Notes under the pieces: generated by a model
The model's input: only the letters and a program-made list of their open reading frames with translations
The model's database searches: none
What the model was told of the DNA's origin: nothing
Translations under genes and position numbers: made by a program
Virus record (IMG/VR): IMGVR_UViG_3300042691_036726
Span: 1 to 30,781 of that record
DNA length: 30,781 nucleotides
From: a virus
Strand: one strand, 5' to 3'
Shown: one piece after another, positions 23,318-30,170 of the stretch
Numbering within the stretch: position 1 is the stretch's first letter
How the letters are laid out: each line of letters starts with the position of its first letter

Positions 23318-24355
23318 ATGAAACTAGGTAGAATATTTTTAGAGGCTCTACTAGAAGCTGGGGGACGAATCGAAATAACAGAAGACTTTTTTGTGAACTT
23401 CAACGAATCTTTCCAAAAGGACCCCGATGCCAAAAAGATTCGAGAAGCCATGAAAAAGTCTTTTAGTCTTAAAGATATAGACGAATACACTGAGGAACTA
23501 AAAAAGCTAATTTCCGAAAAGCTAATCAATGCTGTATTCTTAAAACTCTTCGGAGAATCGTTTAAGGGAGAAATGACATTTCGGACTAAGCCAACCCTAG
23601 ATACAATCCGAGTAACCAGCAGCGATGGAAGGCTAGATGCAATCGTATCCGCTAGGTTTAGCGACTCTGGAAGAGAGCCTAGACCCTTTAAGGTCCTCTC
23701 AGACTATACTACTATAGAGTATCAGTTGGACGAAAACAAAGATGAGAAAACCCCATTATGGGTCCCTAAAGGGAGCCAATCCAAAATCAATCAATACTAC
23801 TCTACCACAAAAAGAGTGGTAGATAGAGACAGCCCCATATACAGCTATACTGATGATGGTAAAGCAAAACGAAAATATTCCAAAACCGGGGAAACCGAAA
23901 TACAAACCAGATCCACAACCAAAGCACCTTCTAGGTCGAATAAGAACCTAATCAGAACAGCTGCTGCTGGTACAGTAGAAAAGATTCAAGGATTTATAAA
24001 CGCATATAACAAGGAAGAGGTAGACGATCCGATCTGGGGAAGACTATTAAATCCTTATATTAAACCTGTAGCCGGAGTAGACCCAGACGATGAAGACTCT
24101 CACAAAGAGAGAGTAGGTCTCCTCTTACAAGCCTTAGTTCAGTGGGCCTTAGACAAAGAATTCTTGTTATACTCCGAAGCAGATCCAAATAAAGAGACTA
24201 TAGAGATAAAAGGAGAGCCTCAAGGAGATAAAGTAAATATTATAGCAACGCAAGGACCGGTAAAGTTAGATACGATGCTAGACATAAAGAACCACAAAGT
24301 AGATCTAGGTCGAACAAAGATCTGGGTCCAAGGAATTCAACTACTAGGAAACTAA
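23318..24355 (+). CDS. Hypothetical protein with T4-internal-protein-like N-terminus (345 aa)
   Basis: The first residues MKLGRIFLEALLEAGG resemble T4 internal-protein capsid-targeting peptides (IPI begins MKTYQEFIAEA), including a possible prohead-protease site F-L-E9 before Ala10. Residues about 10-85 are helical and charged; a beta-rich middle (MTFRTKPTLDTIRVTSSDGR) follows; a basic disordered linker lies near 180-215 (KAKRKYSKTGETEIQTRSTT). The C-terminal third is mixed. No catalytic motif seen. It ends at a strong bidirectional terminator and faces a kinase-like gene with a similar N-terminus, suggesting that both are packaged in the virion (inference). Confidence 0.75.
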   Translation: MKLGRIFLEALLEAGGRIEITEDFFVNFNESFQKDPDAKKIREAMKKSFSLKDIDEYTEELKKLISEKLINAVFLKLFGESFKGEMTFRTKPTLDTIRVTSSDGRLDAIVSARFSDSGREPRPFKVLSDYTTIEYQLDENKDEKTPLWVPKGSQSKINQYYSTTKRVVDRDSPIYSYTDDGKAKRKYSKTGETEIQTRSTTKAPSRSNKNLIRTAAAGTVEKIQGFINAYNKEEVDDPIWGRLLNPYIKPVAGVDPDDEDSHKERVGLLLQALVQWALDKEFLLYSEADPNKETIEIKGEPQGDKVNIIATQGPVKLDTMLDIKNHKVDLGRTKIWVQGIQLLGN

Positions 24356-24360
24356 AAAAG

Positions 24361-24387
24361 AAACCTCTCCTAAAAGAGAGGTTTTTT
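24361..24387. terminator. Bidirectional intrinsic terminator between convergent genes
   Basis: AAACCTCTC (24361-24369), loop CTAAAA, GAGAGGTTT (24376-24384), a 9-bp perfect stem, followed by TTTT on the plus strand and flanked by an A-run on the left, so it can work for both convergent transcripts. Confidence 0.92.
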
Positions 24388-24388
24388 A

Positions 24389-25015
24389 TTAAATGTCGAT
24401 ATACTTAATATTTCCGTCTGAGTCGTACCCTACATTTTTAGAATGTAGATCCGGGCTCAAGGTCCTATCTTTATTAAACCTATCAACATAGCTTTTATCC
24501 ATATCGACACTCTTCTTCATAAACGTTAACCAGTTACTCAGCATAGTAGCTATGTCAGTCTTATTAATTTTACTAAGCACCTTTTTTTCTATATTAGGAT
24601 TCTCTGCCATAGTCTCTATAAAAAACATCACATTATTATCATAGTCAGCTTTAGTATAATCTATGTTTTCTGTATCTAGCTTATATAAAGGCTTAAGCTC
24701 CTTTGTAAGAATATCTATTTCTTTTATAGCTCTATCCGTATCTAGTTTCTTTTGGATCATAATATTTCTGTCAAAATCCATTTTAGATATGTAAGCAAAC
24801 ATATCCGGATTCTTCTTATACACGGTATACTCCCTATTAATAATACCCTGTACGGTAGGGTCTTTTTTCCATTTTTTAATAACGTACTCTCCCTTCTGTA
24901 TAACATCGTTATACTTTACAGCAGGGTACGCTTCTTTATGCGCTCCTTTACCTAGGAGGTCTTTTTTTTTAATCTCCTCTTCTATCGTTTCGAATAATAG
25001 CCTTAGTAGTTTCAT
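24389..25015 (-). CDS. Kinase-like protein with T4-internal-protein-like N-terminus (208 aa)
   Basis: The protein has the order of protein-kinase-like enzymes: Gly loop LGKGAHKEAY (21-30), a Lys in EYVIKKWK (47/48), catalytic loop D189-L-H-S-K-N194 in SPDLHSKNVGYD, and a terminal D207 in KYIDI in the position of the metal-binding DFG aspartate. It stops right after that residue, so no activation segment or C-lobe helices follow; the fold would be minimal, as in aminoglycoside-phosphotransferase-like phage kinases. The N-terminus MKLLRLLFE/TIEEE matches that of the 345-aa protein, including an L-F-E9 prohead-protease-like site. An ejected kinase acting early on host proteins is an attractive inference. 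Its stop overlaps the terminator T-run. Confidence 0.72.
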   Translation of the reverse strand: MKLLRLLFETIEEEIKKKDLLGKGAHKEAYPAVKYNDVIQKGEYVIKKWKKDPTVQGIINREYTVYKKNPDMFAYISKMDFDRNIMIQKKLDTDRAIKEIDILTKELKPLYKLDTENIDYTKADYDNNVMFFIETMAENPNIEKKVLSKINKTDIATMLSNWLTFMKKSVDMDKSYVDRFNKDRTLSPDLHSKNVGYDSDGNIKYIDI

Positions 25016-25049
25016 CTCAATTTTTTAAAAATTTTTTACCGGGGGTATT

Positions 25050-25063
25050 GCATATAAATATGC
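25050..25063 (-). promoter_or_regulatory. GCATATTTATATGC element upstream of the kinase-like gene
   Basis: Minus-strand GCATATTTATATGC, a near-palindromic variant of the ATATTTATATAC element, ends 34 bases before the ATG at 25015, the same distance as for the 218-aa gene. This spacing supports promoter function for this copy. Confidence 0.42.
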
Positions 25064-25095
25064 AAAAATCTATACACCTAAAACAGCCCCTTTAA

Positions 25096-25109
25096 GCCCC
25101 CGGAGGGGC
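25096..25109. other. GC-rich hairpin in the 25.0-25.6 kb gene-free stretch
   Basis: GCCCC-CGGA-GGGGC, a 5-bp stem with tetraloop and no T-run, followed by two copies of GGGCCTGG/GGGGCCTGG. The gene-free stretch 25064-25584 also holds the duplicated RNA module (25325-25511), an inverted-repeat arm (25535-25561) and the first parS-like site. Confidence 0.45.
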
Positions 25110-25324
25110 CTGGTAATACGAATACCTTACCGAACACCGAACAGGGCCTGGAACAGCCTGGGAATCGCTCACACAAGCATTGGGCAACTTATCAAGCGAG
25201 GGGGAGACTTATACTGTATATATGTATATATTAAAGTTTTTCCAAAATTGGGGCGTATATGAAAGGTTACCTGCTAGTTCTCCCCAGATTGCTAAATTCT
25301 TTAGTCCCAAAAATACTAACTTTT

Positions 25325-25403
25325 TTAGCATACATCCGGCATCATTACAAGTGTCAGGTACTACCTATGTTGAGTCGGGGAAATAAAGCCCCCGACACCC
25401 ATA
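25325..25403 (+). ncRNA. Structured RNA module, copy 1
   Basis: Begins TTAGCATACATCCGG, later GGTACTACCTATG, then hairpin GTCGGGG/CCCCGAC (25374-25380 with 25390-25396) whose loop contains AAATAAAG, closed outside by TATG/CATA (25366-25369 with 25400-25403). A second copy lies 107 bases downstream. No T-run follows the hairpin. Direction is assumed from neighbouring genes. Confidence 0.5.
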
Positions 25404-25431
25404 CATCGCGGCTCACAGGTTACTAAAGAAG

Positions 25432-25511
25432 TTAGCATACATCCGGTATCGTTAACGGACAAAGGTACTACCTATGTAGTGTTGAGGGAAATAAAGCCCC
25501 TCATCACATAG
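25432..25511 (+). ncRNA. Structured RNA module, copy 2
   Basis: Repeats TTAGCATACATCCGG and GGTACTACCTATG of copy 1. The hairpin is TGAGGG/CCCTCA (25483-25488 with 25498-25503) extended by GTG/CAC and CTAT/ATAG; the loop again contains AAATAAAG. Stem sequences differ from copy 1 on both sides while pairing and loop are kept, i.e. compensatory change, the best sequence evidence that the structure matters. Confidence 0.55.
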
Positions 25512-25534
25512 TCGGGACGGGTATAGTTCTTTAC

Positions 25535-25561
25535 ATACGGGTATGGGCGTGGCTGATGGAT
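25535..25561 (+). repeat. Left arm of inverted repeat flanking the 194-aa gene
   Basis: Contains ATACGGG, GGGCGTGG and TGATGGA in that order; the reverse complement of 26208-26232 has the same three blocks with one-base indels. 22 positions match. The arms enclose the first parS-like site and the 194-aa gene. Confidence 0.6.
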
Positions 25562-25584
25562 GCCTAATCACATCCTAAACACAA

Positions 25585-25600
25585 TGTTCCACGTGGAACA
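25585..25600. promoter_or_regulatory. parS-like site 1 (perfect palindrome)
   Basis: TGTTCCACGTGGAACA, a perfect 16-bp palindrome equal to the chromosomal parS sequence type bound by ParB (consensus TGTTTCACGTGAAACA, with CC/GG variants in many bacteria). It lies 15 bases before the ATG at 25616, so bound ParB could also affect that gene. Confidence 0.8.
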
Positions 25601-25615
25601 CTAAAAAAATCAGCC

Positions 25616-26200
25616 ATGAACAAAGTTACATTCATCCTCGAAGGAACGAAAGAGACAGCCAAAGGATCAGCGCCTTCCGCTCGGCTCACTTATGTAGACC
25701 TTGATACCAAGGAACGCATGACAGTCGCAATCGGGAACGCAATCAGGTTCATCATGACAGGTTTGCCCCTTTACAAGGCATACGCCCCTGTCCTGACATT
25801 GAAAGTAGGTGACGAAATAATCGGATACGTTACACGTTTTCCGGGAAAAACGACCACTGAAATATTCACGGCTATGAATGCCGAAGTACTCCGGATGGTG
25901 CTCTCATCCCGTTTCACCACTGATGAACTCATCAACCTGAAGAGTTCAACTGATAAAGTAGTGAACGGAATATGCGAAGCCTTCGGACACAAAGGGAAGA
26001 GTATTAACATCGCAGGTGCTGAACAGAACCTCGGTGCGAAATTCCAATCTTTGAAAGATATCCTGAAGTATGCCAAGCATGGAGGCAAACAACTCTATGA
26101 AGAGCAAACCCCGACCGAGGTTATCAACTTCATCAAGGTAGATAAGGAAAACCGCCGTATCGCCTCTGCTGAAAGAAAACTCCTCAAAAGTTCTAATTAA
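25616..26200 (+). CDS. Hypothetical protein (194 aa) downstream of parS-like site 1
   Basis: A 194-residue protein with a beta-rich N-terminal half (NKVTFILEGTKETAKGSAPS, VLTLKVGDEIIGYVTRFPGK) and a helical C-terminal half (FQSLKDILKYAKHGGKQLYE) ending in basic residues (RRIASAERKLLKSSN). No ParB, ParA or helix-turn-helix signature is apparent and no family is recognised. Codon use is more GC-rich than in the left arm. The gene is enclosed by an imperfect inverted repeat and by parS-like sites 1 and 2, an unusual setting for a single small gene. Confidence 0.8.
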   Translation: MNKVTFILEGTKETAKGSAPSARLTYVDLDTKERMTVAIGNAIRFIMTGLPLYKAYAPVLTLKVGDEIIGYVTRFPGKTTTEIFTAMNAEVLRMVLSSRFTTDELINLKSSTDKVVNGICEAFGHKGKSINIAGAEQNLGAKFQSLKDILKYAKHGGKQLYEEQTPTEVINFIKVDKENRRIASAERKLLKSSN

Positions 26201-26207
26201 TTAAATT

Positions 26208-26232
26208 GTCCATCACCACGCCCCGCCCGTAT
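26208..26232 (-). repeat. Right arm of inverted repeat flanking the 194-aa gene
   Basis: GTCCATCACCACGCCCCGCC and the five following bases pair with 25535-25561. In a transcript the two arms would close a stem around the whole gene; in DNA they could mark an inserted cassette. Confidence 0.6.
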
Positions 26233-26240
26233 TATAGATA

Positions 26241-27003
26241 GGTGCAGAAGGCTAACGACCTTACTGTGAGCGATACACACTGCACCACATAACATCTATG
26301 ACCTCATAGGGAATAGAGCCCTATGATGAGATGTTAGCGGAAGGATGTTCCACGTGGAACGTTCTAGATCTTAAACAGAACAGATTGGGAACGGAGTCGA
26401 AGCGCTCCGCCATGTACTCACCCGGACATAAAACCCGGAGATCAGGTACACCCCCATCCAAACGACCACAGAGCGTATGAGGTACGCCAACAGAGGCTCG
26501 TAAGCTTAGTCCCTGAATAGACCCACCGTGGAACAGTGGAGACGTTCATACCCCCAAGAGCGATATGAATAATGGGTTTCTACCCAAAGGCACGTAGAAC
26601 TTTCTGCGGAGAGTAAACTACTCAAAAGGTCTGTGTGAGGTTAGGGAATGTACAGCACATGGCAAGAGAACGTAAAGTTGCAGGCACGAAATAAAGAGAT
26701 ACACGTGTGAGAGCCGTCTGCATCGTCCATGAACCAATCGGAAGCCCACCTGTGTACCCGCAGGCTGTCTGCTTGACCTGTCTCTCCGGAGTATTGGGTC
26801 TTGTATGTTCTGCGGCAAATACAAAACTCCCTTTAGTGTTTGGTAGTTTGGGAGTGTTTAGGTTTACAAGAAAATTACCACCAAGCGAGTCCGAGTGAAT
26901 TAACACTCCAATCGTCCCATTTCTATGGTTCGGTAGCGTCCGCTGTCCTTGGGCAAGTTAATAGATGCAAGATGGTGCAGACATGTCGTGGTGTTTGCAC
27001 ATC
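26241..27003 (+). ncRNA. Hairpin-dense gene-free segment, candidate large structured RNA
   Basis: No credible gene is present. Many local stems occur: a 46-nt three-way junction 26241-26286 closed by GGTGCAG/CTGCACC with two 7-nt-loop arms; a long hairpin 26291-26335 (AACATCT/AGATGTT outside, TCATAGGG/CCCTATGA inside); CGGAG/CTCCG at 26392-26409; TGTAC/GTACA at 26413-26450 around CCGG/CCGG; GCGTA/TACGC at 26473-26487; TTCATA/TATGAA at 26545-26569; TGGGT-TTCT-ACCCA at 26573-26586; GGAGTGTT/AACACTCC at 26851-26909; and GATGGTGCA/TGCACATC with one bulge at 26971-27003. parS-like site 2 interrupts it. The right end runs into a tRNA-like element. Large ornate phage RNAs (GOLLD, ROOL) are often near tRNA genes, so such an RNA is a candidate; limits and strand are approximate. 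Confidence 0.45.
26346..26361. promoter_or_regulatory. parS-like site 2
   Basis: TGTTCCACGTGGAACG, one mismatch at the last base from site 1. Lies between the 26291-26335 hairpin and the rest of the structured segment. Confidence 0.78.
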
Positions 27004-27019
27004 GAGAGTAAACGACTGA

Positions 27020-27082
27020 AGGCGTTGGGAGAGGGTCTCCCACGGAGTAAAATCCGTCCCGGTTCGAGTCCGGGAGCGCCTC
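27020..27082 (+). tRNA. Atypical tRNA-like element (63 nt)
   Basis: A canonical T arm is present: CCCGG-TTCGAGT-CCGGG (27058-27074), followed by AGCGCCT which pairs over 7 bp (one G-U) with AGGCGTT at 27020-27026. Between these are a short GAGA/TCTC arm and an arm ACGGA/TCCGT with loop GTAAAA (only 6 nt). D arm and anticodon loop are too short for an ordinary tRNA, and no CCA is encoded. It may be a degenerate tRNA, an unusual small tRNA, or a tRNA-like domain of the adjacent structured RNA. No anticodon is called. Confidence 0.5.
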
Positions 27083-27085
27083 CGA

Positions 27086-27140
27086 TGTGTCGGAGTAGTC
27101 CGACCGTGCGTATGCTTCCGCGAAAATCGGAGTGCGCATG
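27086..27140 (+). other. Two hairpins after the tRNA-like element
   Basis: GTCGGA-GTAG-TCCGAC lies at about 27088-27103, and GTGCGTAT pairs with GTGCGCAT (with G-U pairs) around TCCG/CGGA at about 27105-27140. They lie between the tRNA-like element and parS-like site 3 and may be part of the same transcript. Confidence 0.45.
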
Positions 27141-27146
27141 AAAAAA

Positions 27147-27162
27147 TGTTCCACGTGGAACG
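27147..27162. promoter_or_regulatory. parS-like site 3
   Basis: TGTTCCACGTGGAACG, same sequence as site 2, 47 bases before the ATG at 27210. Confidence 0.78.
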
Positions 27163-27180
27163 TTGCAATTAAAGTCTTCA

Positions 27181-27212
27181 TTCTTAAACCATCATAAAAC
27201 AAAACAGTTATG
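27181..27212 (+). promoter_or_regulatory. Leader family B, copy 1
   Basis: TTCTTAAACCATCATAAAAC followed 9 bases later by the ATG. Shares TTCTTAA(A)CC(A/T)TCA with four other leaders in the window; 29 bases from first base to ATG. Confidence 0.65.
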
Positions 27213-27560
27213 AACCAGTCAGCACAAACAGTACCGTTCGCAAACATGCAATCAATCCCTTACCTTTTGAAAGGTCGGGTGGAAGACTATAGAATTGACG
27301 AAATGGTCACCCTCAAGGGTGGCAGACCTGAATTCCACCCCACAAGGGGGTTCACATTCCGCAAGCACATCATCTCCCTCGGGGATGAGGGGGTAATCGT
27401 AATAGAAGATTTCGGGTACCATACCGAAATCACATGTGTCCCCACCGCAGGCATGCCTAAACTCTTCAAGATTGTTTATCATGTCCTGAAATGTGCGGGC
27501 GTTAACATCATCCCCTACGTATACACAAAGGCCACAGACCTCATAAAAGTAGAAATCTAG
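27210..27560 (+). CDS. Hypothetical protein (116 aa)
   Basis: No family recognised. The protein has an N-terminal polar stretch (MNQSAQTVPFANMQSIPYLL), a central beta-rich part (RKHIISLGDEGVIVIEDFGY) and a C-terminal segment with Tyr/Val-rich strands (GVNIIPYVYTKATDLIKVEI). The start follows a family B leader and lies downstream of parS-like site 3. A pair of hairpins follows the stop, without a T-run. Confidence 0.78.
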   Translation: MNQSAQTVPFANMQSIPYLLKGRVEDYRIDEMVTLKGGRPEFHPTRGFTFRKHIISLGDEGVIVIEDFGYHTEITCVPTAGMPKLFKIVYHVLKCAGVNIIPYVYTKATDLIKVEI

Positions 27561-27572
27561 GTCTCTGTCCCT

Positions 27573-27614
27573 CCCCACACGGTTTAGCCGTGGGTCTTCG
27601 ATACCAATGTGGGG
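27573..27614 (+). other. Branched hairpin after the 116-aa gene
   Basis: CCCCACA (27573-27579) pairs with TGTGGGG (27608-27614); inside are an ACGG/CCGT arm and a TGG/CCA arm. No T-run follows. It may protect the 3' end of the mRNA or belong to a small RNA. Confidence 0.45.
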
Positions 27615-27629
27615 GCTAATAACTTAAAA

Positions 27630-27645
27630 TGTTCCACGTGGAACG
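27630..27645. promoter_or_regulatory. parS-like site 4
   Basis: TGTTCCACGTGGAACG, identical to sites 2 and 3, in the gene-free stretch 27561-27909. Confidence 0.78.
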
Positions 27646-27652
27646 TTCACAT

Positions 27653-27694
27653 AACTTATTCACACTCAATGAGTTGGGTGTGGAAAAATAAGTT
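27653..27694 (+). other. Long hairpin between parS-like sites 4 and 5
   Basis: AACTTATT (27653-27660) pairs with AATAAGTT (27687-27694) and CACACTCA (27661-27668) with TGGGTGTG (27675-27682), a 16-bp stem with one small bulge and loop ATGAGT. A second stem, GCAGGTAG-TCAC-CTACTTGC, is at 27731-27750, and GTGTGGAA near 27678 can pair with TTCCACAC near 27774. The stretch has no gene. Confidence 0.55.
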
Positions 27695-27787
27695 TTGTGG
27701 TGTGAAAAGGAAGTTGTATGGGGATAAATAGCAGGTAGTCACCTACTTGCCGTACATCACCTTGCAACAATACTTCCACACATTATA

Positions 27788-27803
27788 TGTTTCACGTGGA
27801 ACA
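27788..27803. promoter_or_regulatory. parS-like site 5 (hybrid half-sites)
   Basis: TGTTTCACGTGGAACA: the left half matches the B. subtilis-type parS half (TGTTTCAC), the right half the CC/GG type (GTGGAACA). Confidence 0.78.
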
Positions 27804-27816
27804 TTGTTATCTTACT

Positions 27817-27844
27817 CCCCTATTACTTATGTGGTAGGGGTTTT
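27817..27844 (+). terminator. Intrinsic terminator
   Basis: CCCCTA (27817-27822) pairs with TAGGGG (27835-27840), followed by TTTT. It ends whatever is transcribed from the 27.56-27.81 kb stretch, supporting the presence of an RNA there, and isolates the next gene. Confidence 0.7.
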
Positions 27845-27880
27845 GTGTGCTATCTATAATGGGTAGCACGTTAGTTTGTA

Positions 27881-27912
27881 TTTCATCCACCATAACAAGG
27901 ATTAAGGCTATG
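27881..27912 (+). promoter_or_regulatory. Leader family A, copy 1
   Basis: Contains CCACCATAACAAGGATTAA followed by four bases and the ATG. The AAGGA part can serve as a Shine-Dalgarno with 8-base spacing. It decides the start at 27910 over an upstream in-frame GTG at 27847. Confidence 0.7.
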
Positions 27913-28092
27913 AGTAAGAAAATCGAAAAGGAACTCGAACTGCTTCAAGAGCAGACTTTATTCCAAGTTAAAGTAGTACGGGAATTTACCCGTATCTATG
28001 GGCGTAAGCCTACTTGGGAGGAGTTCCTCAAGTTCGAAGTTCGCTGCCGTCTACACGGTAGCAAAGCATCTTTCCACCATAACAAGGATTAA
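27910..28092 (+). CDS. Small charged protein (60 aa)
   Basis: ATG chosen at 27910 because it sits at the standard distance from a family A leader. The protein is helical and charged (MSKKIEKELELLQEQTLFQV, then KVVREFTRIYGRKPTWEEFL). The last residues (HHNKD and stop) are encoded by a second copy of the leader sequence. REFxxxxGRKPTWEEF suggests a small helical domain; no named family. Confidence 0.7.
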   Translation: MSKKIEKELELLQEQTLFQVKVVREFTRIYGRKPTWEEFLKFEVRCRLHGSKASFHHNKD

Positions 28093-28096
28093 GATA
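28071..28096 (+). promoter_or_regulatory. Leader family A, copy 2, without ATG at the expected place
   Basis: CCACCATAACAAGGATTAA is identical to copy 1, but four bases later the codon is TTC (28097-28099), not ATG. The leader overlaps the 3' end of the 60-aa gene and supplies its stop codon. Confidence 0.6.
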
Positions 28097-28180
28097 TTCT
28101 GTCTTGATGACAACAAAGAGGTATTGCCTGTGTGCCTCCGAGTTGTCTTAACTAATTACATCACGGGTAAAAACCATTAA
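28088..28180 (+). pseudogene. Open frame after leader copy 2 lacking a normal start codon
   Basis: In the frame set by the leader, codons from 28097 read FCLDDNKEVLPVCLRVVLTN and nine more residues (ending in GKNH) to a stop at 28178-28180. No ATG, GTG or TTG is available at the expected start; ATT (28088) or ATA (28094) would be needed. It is either a decayed small gene or uses a rare start. Low confidence. Confidence 0.3.
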
Positions 28181-28182
28181 TC

Positions 28183-28201
28183 ACCGGAAGAGCCGACCGG
28201 T
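28183..28201 (+). other. Short hairpin upstream of the 163-aa gene
   Basis: ACCGG-loop-CCGGT, 5-bp stem with 9-base loop, ending 18 bases before the ATG at 28220; could influence initiation. Confidence 0.4.
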
Positions 28202-28219
28202 ACAAAACGGCAAAGAATT

Positions 28220-28711
28220 ATGACTAAGAACATGTTTAAGAAAGTAGACATCGAAACCAAGATGTTCGAGATCGAGGAGGAGATATCTCGCCTCGAGAAA
28301 AGGTATGCAGTAGGGTTAGAGAACTCAATGCAGTTCTCGGACCTATCTGTACGGCAGTTTGAACAGGATCCCGGTACAAACGGTATTCTTGCCAAGATCC
28401 AGAAACTCAATAAGGAGTGGCAGGCTCTTGAAGATAGTAAGCCTAAGATGACATCTCCCTTCAAGAAGAGGAATGATGCCCCCTCTGTAATGTCGGAGGA
28501 GGACAGAAGCCGCTACCGTGCGGTGATGTCTAAACTCACGGATGAGGAGTTCGAGGCTTATCTCCTCTATGTAAGATGGACTCCGGAGCAGATAGAAGGG
28601 CTCTATGCAAAGTACTATAATTGTCAGATGTCAGTACTTTGTAAGTCCTTTGATTTTAAGGAGACAGAAGAAGGCGGTAAGTTCTGGTCTGCAATAGCGG
28701 ATCGGATCTGA
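28220..28711 (+). CDS. Hypothetical helical protein (163 aa)
   Basis: Residues 10-32 form a coiled coil (DIETKMFEIEEEISRLEKRY), residues 58-72 another short helix (LAKIQKLNKEWQALED), then a Pro/Lys linker and a C-terminal domain with SKLTDEEFEAYLLYVRWTPE and a Trp/Phe-rich end (GGKFWSAIADRI). No family recognised. A strong terminator follows eleven bases after the stop. Unlike its neighbours the start is not preceded by a clear A or B leader. Confidence 0.78.
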   Translation: MTKNMFKKVDIETKMFEIEEEISRLEKRYAVGLENSMQFSDLSVRQFEQDPGTNGILAKIQKLNKEWQALEDSKPKMTSPFKKRNDAPSVMSEEDRSRYRAVMSKLTDEEFEAYLLYVRWTPEQIEGLYAKYYNCQMSVLCKSFDFKETEEGGKFWSAIADRI

Positions 28712-30096: not shown

Positions 30097-30167
30097 GATC
30101 AGGTCGGCTAATGGTAGGCCGTCTCTCTGTATGGGAGAAAGTGTGGGTTCGATTCCCACTCTGATCA
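30097..30167 (+). tRNA. tRNA with GUA anticodon by position (Tyr), short variable region
   Basis: Acceptor GATCAGG/TCTGATC (7 bp with one G-U), D arm GGCT-AATGGTA-GGCC, anticodon arm TCTCT-CTGTATG-GGAGA with anticodon GTA after U33, variable region AAGT, T arm GTGGG-TTCGATT-CCCAC, discriminator A; CCA is not encoded. All four arms are complete. Bacterial Tyr tRNAs have a long variable arm, which is missing here, and base 37 is T rather than a purine, so identity is less sure than structure. Confidence 0.82.
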
Positions 30168-30170
30168 CTA

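Follow-up and report, generated by a model that had tools for sequence, protein, structure and literature searches.

A D-arm-less element derived from tRNA-Leu at the end of a noncoding stretch in an immuto/Mel-JY01-like phage

The noncoding MALAT1 transcript obtains its 3' end by cleavage at a tRNA-like element, which also frees a stable small RNA, mascRNA. The corresponding family (mascRNA-menRNA, RF01684) is eukaryotic, and its members are minimal, short-armed cloverleaves of tRNA-like shape that follow a long noncoding stretch. The locus described here is built in a similar way, although its element scores below the gathering score of that family. A long noncoding phage stretch near a tRNA-like element also recalls the large structured RNAs GOLLD and ROOL, both of which have been described near tRNAs (PMC12286853). 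A third point of comparison is the class II tRNA-Leu(UAA) of Clostridia and of phage Mel-JY01, with which the anticodon stem, the variable arm and the T-arm of the element align without gaps.

The window is the whole stretch of DNA that was analysed, a 30.8-kb virus record in which minus-strand structural genes extend across about 1.8-21.3 kb and small genes on the plus strand take over at 21.4 kb. The baseplate wedge protein shares 47.5% identity with that of Flavobacterium phage immuto and 45.9% with that of Microcystis phage Mel-JY01; the virus is an immuto/Mel-JY01-like myophage with a contractile tail. The noncoding stretch lies between two plus-strand genes of 194 amino acids (25616-26200) and 116 amino acids (27210-27560), for which searches for families and relatives gave no match in the collections used. 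Homologues were sought by DNA similarity, by DNA patterns and through the proteins encoded nearby; none emerged for 25616-26197, 28220-28708 and 23318-24352, and the same searches gave no match for the whole noncoding region. At the other end of the window, positions 1-1000 show a strong G-over-C skew of 0.57, and a long run of short GTAG-rich repeats covers 1-1780, apparently encoding a minus-strand Thr-rich repeat protein that continues past the contig end.

The absence of a credible gene from the stretch, already noted in the first-pass annotation, was upheld by codon usage. Using a score trained on the early genes, with a leave-one-out control, we found positive values for all early genes in their own frame. 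Across 26201-27100 the score was about zero or below in all six frames, rising only at the start of the gene at 27210, which rules out hidden genes. The GC content is 0.49 over this noncoding DNA of roughly 1 kb and 0.36 over the structural genes. Because the flanking genes also reach 0.46-0.47, this rise is regional and does not point to an RNA.

The first-pass annotation had further proposed that the stretch is one large ornate RNA with many local stems, either a divergent GOLLD or ROOL or a member of a new class. The listed stems are present, but the stretch is not evenly ornate. In single-sequence folding against dinucleotide shuffles (200 shuffles wherever counts are given), only 26241-26336 and 27020-27140 did better than the shuffles. 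The noncoding body between them (26365-27015, plus strand) had a minimum free energy (MFE) z-score of 0.08 when pairing was limited to a maximum span of 120 nt, and its Watson-Crick stems of 6 bp or longer numbered 6, where shuffles had 5.0 ± 2.2. Five pieces from the middle gave z-scores of -1.1, -0.25, +1.4, -1.3 and -0.9, and local 100-nt windows agreed with a body at shuffle level and folded ends. Folded as one piece, 26230-27085 has a z-score of about -2, which is owed to its two ends because the body is at shuffle level. The mutually exclusive pairings reported at 26826-26909 (plus strand) do exist and do exclude each other, ACTCCC/GGGAGT spanning 26826-26855 and GGAGTGTT/AACACTCC spanning 26851-26909, but they are near chance, since 21 of 200 shuffles reach them.

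Membership of the known classes was not borne out either. The GOLLD and ROOL covariance models gave no match over 26190-27210, whether at the gathering score or at E ≤ 10, and tmRNA, introns and riboswitches were rejected for want of an Rfam match. A remnant tRNA array within the body was also rejected, as BLAST similarity to tRNAs is confined to the 3' element. One could still imagine a large structured RNA of some 700-850 nt, either novel or far diverged from known ones, with a role like that of GOLLD or ROOL and a tRNA-like 3' end, given that the noncoding DNA, about 1 kb long and rich in GC (0.49 versus 0.36), ends in such an element and that both ends carry structured elements. We regard this as unlikely in view of the silent Rfam search at E ≤ 10, the body at shuffle level and the GC-rich neighbouring genes, although the folding energy of a single sequence can miss a functional RNA. 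The stretch also contains a palindrome that recurs at four other intergenic sites, which suggests separate elements. The best explanation is that the stretch is intergenic DNA with separate small RNA elements rather than one giant ornate RNA. For calls of large ornate RNAs, this means that the body needs testing apart from a tRNA-like end.

At the 5' end of the stretch, two structures had been predicted and both were recovered. The 46-nt three-way junction with two 7-nt loops (26241-26286, plus strand) is exactly as claimed, with a 7-bp closing stem, GGTGCAG/CTGCACC, around the arms AAGG-CTAACGA-CCTT and TGTG-AGCGATA-CACA (z = -2.6; equalled by 5 of 200 shuffles). Downstream, the nested hairpin at about 26290-26336 (plus strand) consists of two 8-bp helices and an AATAGAG loop (z = -4.7 for the segment 26289-26338; 0 of 200 shuffles). 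At the other end, two plus-strand hairpins at 27089-27140, directly 3' of the tRNA-like element, read GTCGGA-GTAG-TCCGAC and GTGCGTATGC...GTGCGCAT; the segment 27083-27146 has a z-score of -3.7, and the hairpins have no clear U-tract.

The first-pass annotation was right that the stretch runs into a tRNA-like element, which we now place at 27020-27081 (plus strand) and describe as tRNA-Leu-derived, lacking a D-arm and non-decoding. It is 62 nt long and folds with a z-score of -3.4, which none of 200 shuffles reached. Its acceptor stem, AGGCGTT/AGCGCCT, joins 27020-27026 to 27075-27081. The equivalent of the anticodon arm, TGGGA-GAGGGTC-TCCCA (27026-27042), could alternatively fold at 27027-27041 as GGGAGA-GGG-TCTCCC, with 6 bp and a GGG loop. 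It is followed by the equivalent of the variable arm, CGGAGTAAAATCCG (27043-27056), folded as ACGGA-GTAAAA-TCCGT and placed by alignment, and by a T-arm with a consensus T-loop, CCCGG-TTCGAGT-CCGGG (27058-27074), supported by folding, BLAST and alignment. A further outer stem of 7 bp around the element, CACATCG/CGATGTG, appears in the MFE structure and is absent from the centroid. The D-arm is thus missing while a complete acceptor stem is present in cis: all seven bases of the acceptor 3' strand pair with the bases immediately before the arms, whereas neighbouring registers give 0-3 of 7 pairs and only 0.02-0.09% of random 7-mers would pair at all seven positions.

Standard tools pass over this element. 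ARAGORN with default settings called no tRNA at 27020-27081 and neither did the Rfam tRNA model, so it goes unseen by the default tRNA finder used. On the local stretch, mascRNA-menRNA scored best among the Rfam models, at 18.1 bits (E = 0.12) against a gathering score of 42.5. In a generic scan for cloverleaves, in which an arm with a 7-nt loop had to abut the 3' strand of a 7-bp stem, the plus strand yielded a tRNA-Tyr, the element, the junction at 26241-26286 and one site within a structural gene; within 24356-28220 there were 2 matches on this strand, against 0.12 expected from shuffles. The idea that the junction may be another tRNA-like element, of very small size, was formed after the fact. 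The tRNA with the GTA (Tyr) anticodon lies at 30097-30168, and its variable loop appears short by eye; that of bacterial tRNA-Tyr is normally long.

The origin of the element is clearer than its role. Among phages, its best BLAST match (E = 2e-5) was the 3' portion of a TAA-anticodon tRNA-Leu, sited at the end of a faecal phage scaffold. In bacteria, a first, strict pattern of the element had no match among 85,000 species genomes, and a relaxed pattern returned 18 loci, mostly from Clostridia, of which ARAGORN called 16 as tRNA-Leu(UAA), the remaining two being cut at a contig end. We aligned the element with 12 of these loci and the intact tRNA-Leu(UAA) of the related Microcystis phage Mel-JY01, that is, with 13 tRNA-Leu(UAA) genes, over 49 gapless columns, the bacterial loci having been picked with a pattern derived from the element itself. 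Outside the anticodon loop, 38 of 42 positions match the tRNA-Leu consensus, and the four that differ form two compensated pairs: in the anticodon stem U-A replaces A-U, and in the T-stem C-G stands in place of A-U or G-C. Every aligned sequence has standard pairing at all 14 pairs. The variable arm is identical to that of several tRNA-Leu(UAA) genes (for instance at loci L114, L116, L117, L119 and L120). As judged by this sequence comparison, the arms of the element are shown to descend from tRNA-Leu(UAA). Because much of the covariation in the alignment lies among ordinary tRNAs, only the two compensated pairs speak for the phage element, and these may be older than the loss of decoding.

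In other respects the element differs from its ancestors. All seven bases of the anticodon loop have changed (GAGGGTC for CTTAAAA), leaving neither U33 nor an anticodon, so that features of a functional tRNA-Leu are lacking. The acceptor strand differs from those of the tRNA-Leu genes found. At the 3' end, the T-stem is followed by AGCGCCT and then CCGA, with C73 in place of A73 and no encoded CCA, which might be added after transcription. Since the D-arm is lost and the anticodon loop wholly replaced, the element cannot be a translating tRNA. From general knowledge of tRNAs, decoding and leucylation are ruled out by the lack of U33, an anticodon, A73, a D-loop and an encoded CCA.

The same losses are what one would expect of a decaying pseudogene, which is the main rival to a mini-tRNA that has been kept. 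According to this explanation, a former tRNA-Leu(UAA), as in Mel-JY01, lost its D-arm and anticodon and became functionless, and the rest of the stretch is spacer with intergenic hairpins. The missing D-arm, anticodon, A73 and CCA and the unremarkable body would fit, as would the presence in the 5' flank of GAGAGTAAAC, a start found in tRNA-Ser genes of phages and placed here at about the right register. However, every change outside the anticodon loop leaves the pairs intact, yet the loop has changed at every position, and an acceptor stem paired at 7 of 7 positions is improbable as a chance formation in cis. Neutral decay therefore seems to us possible but rather doubtful. The sequence GAGAGTAAAC occurs at 26609 and again at 27004; as a signature of the region it was rejected, its matches in viral contigs being mostly ordinary tRNA genes, chiefly tRNA-Ser.

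The similarity to tRNA-Leu starts in the anticodon stem and extends 3', as is typical of attP sites. An integrating element may thus have carried the 3' half of a tRNA-Leu as its attachment site, as in Pseudanabaena phage Pan4, whose match, resembling the 3' part of a tRNA-Leu, adjoins a tyrosine recombinase (integrase) gene. This explanation is very improbable, since the acceptor and anticodon stems each have a paired 5' strand in cis, for which an attP fragment has no need, no integrase was found among the window genes searched, and the relatives that are named are large phages with contractile tails. Other phages yielded no homologue of the element, and a single-element covariance model run on 25 records gave no second copy, its two weak matches being ordinary tRNAs.

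We therefore return to the reading that the element is a mini-tRNA which no longer decodes but has been kept for its shape, and that it most likely marks the 3' end of a noncoding transcript for processing by RNase P/Z; our confidence in this reading stands at about an even balance. The stretch upstream of the element would be transcribed as a noncoding RNA. Host RNase P would recognise the minihelix of acceptor and T-arm, which RNase Z may possibly recognise as well, and would cut near A27020. By cutting at the 5' end of the element, the enzyme would fix where the upstream noncoding RNA ends, and cleavage could release a stable small RNA by analogy with the release of mascRNA from MALAT1. Recognition by RNase P is made less certain by the 3' end of the element, which reads CCGA and lacks RCCA. 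A fuller version, which we offer as speculation and hold to be improbable, is that a noncoding RNA of roughly 0.65-0.8 kb, with its 3' end set by a D-armless mini-tRNA, is the phage counterpart of MALAT1 and mascRNA, possibly with 26241-26286 as a second D-armless tRNA-like element marking the other side. If the mini-tRNA reading is true, the element, a tRNA that gave up its D-arm and decoding loop and retained all its other pairs, would plainly show a phage putting the tRNA shape to use outside translation.

A role in regulating the downstream gene has also been considered. The element lies on the same strand as the gene at 27210-27560, 128 nt upstream of its ATG, and its tRNA-like shape could allow it to act as a tRNA mimic in the mRNA leader, bound by the protein of that gene or by a synthetase. 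We find this the most improbable of the explanations, as two hairpins and a palindrome separate the element from the gene and the encoded protein has no recognisable family.

That palindrome is parS-like (TGTT(C/T)CACGTGGAAC(A/G)) and, by pattern match, occurs in five copies within 2.2 kb, all of them intergenic, where 0.04 would be expected (25585-25600, 26346-26361, 27147-27162, 27630-27645 and 27788-27803). The copies at 26346-26361 and 27147-27162 read TGTTCCACGTGGAACG. No ParB_N domain was found in the present record or in seven relatives, and the same seven relatives contain no copies of the palindrome. In several other viral contigs that carry it, a TATAAT-like box lies a few nucleotides away. 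Upstream of the stretch, an 80-nt element is repeated in tandem (25314-25393 and 25421-25500, 71% identical) and has no match in Rfam or viral contigs; its hairpins have different stems (GTCGGGG/CCCCGAC and a GAGGG type) and keep the loop AAATAAAG. Downstream, an exact 21-nt direct repeat, TCCACCATAACAAGGATTAAG, occurs at 27886-27906 and 28073-28093, with a spacing of 187 nt.
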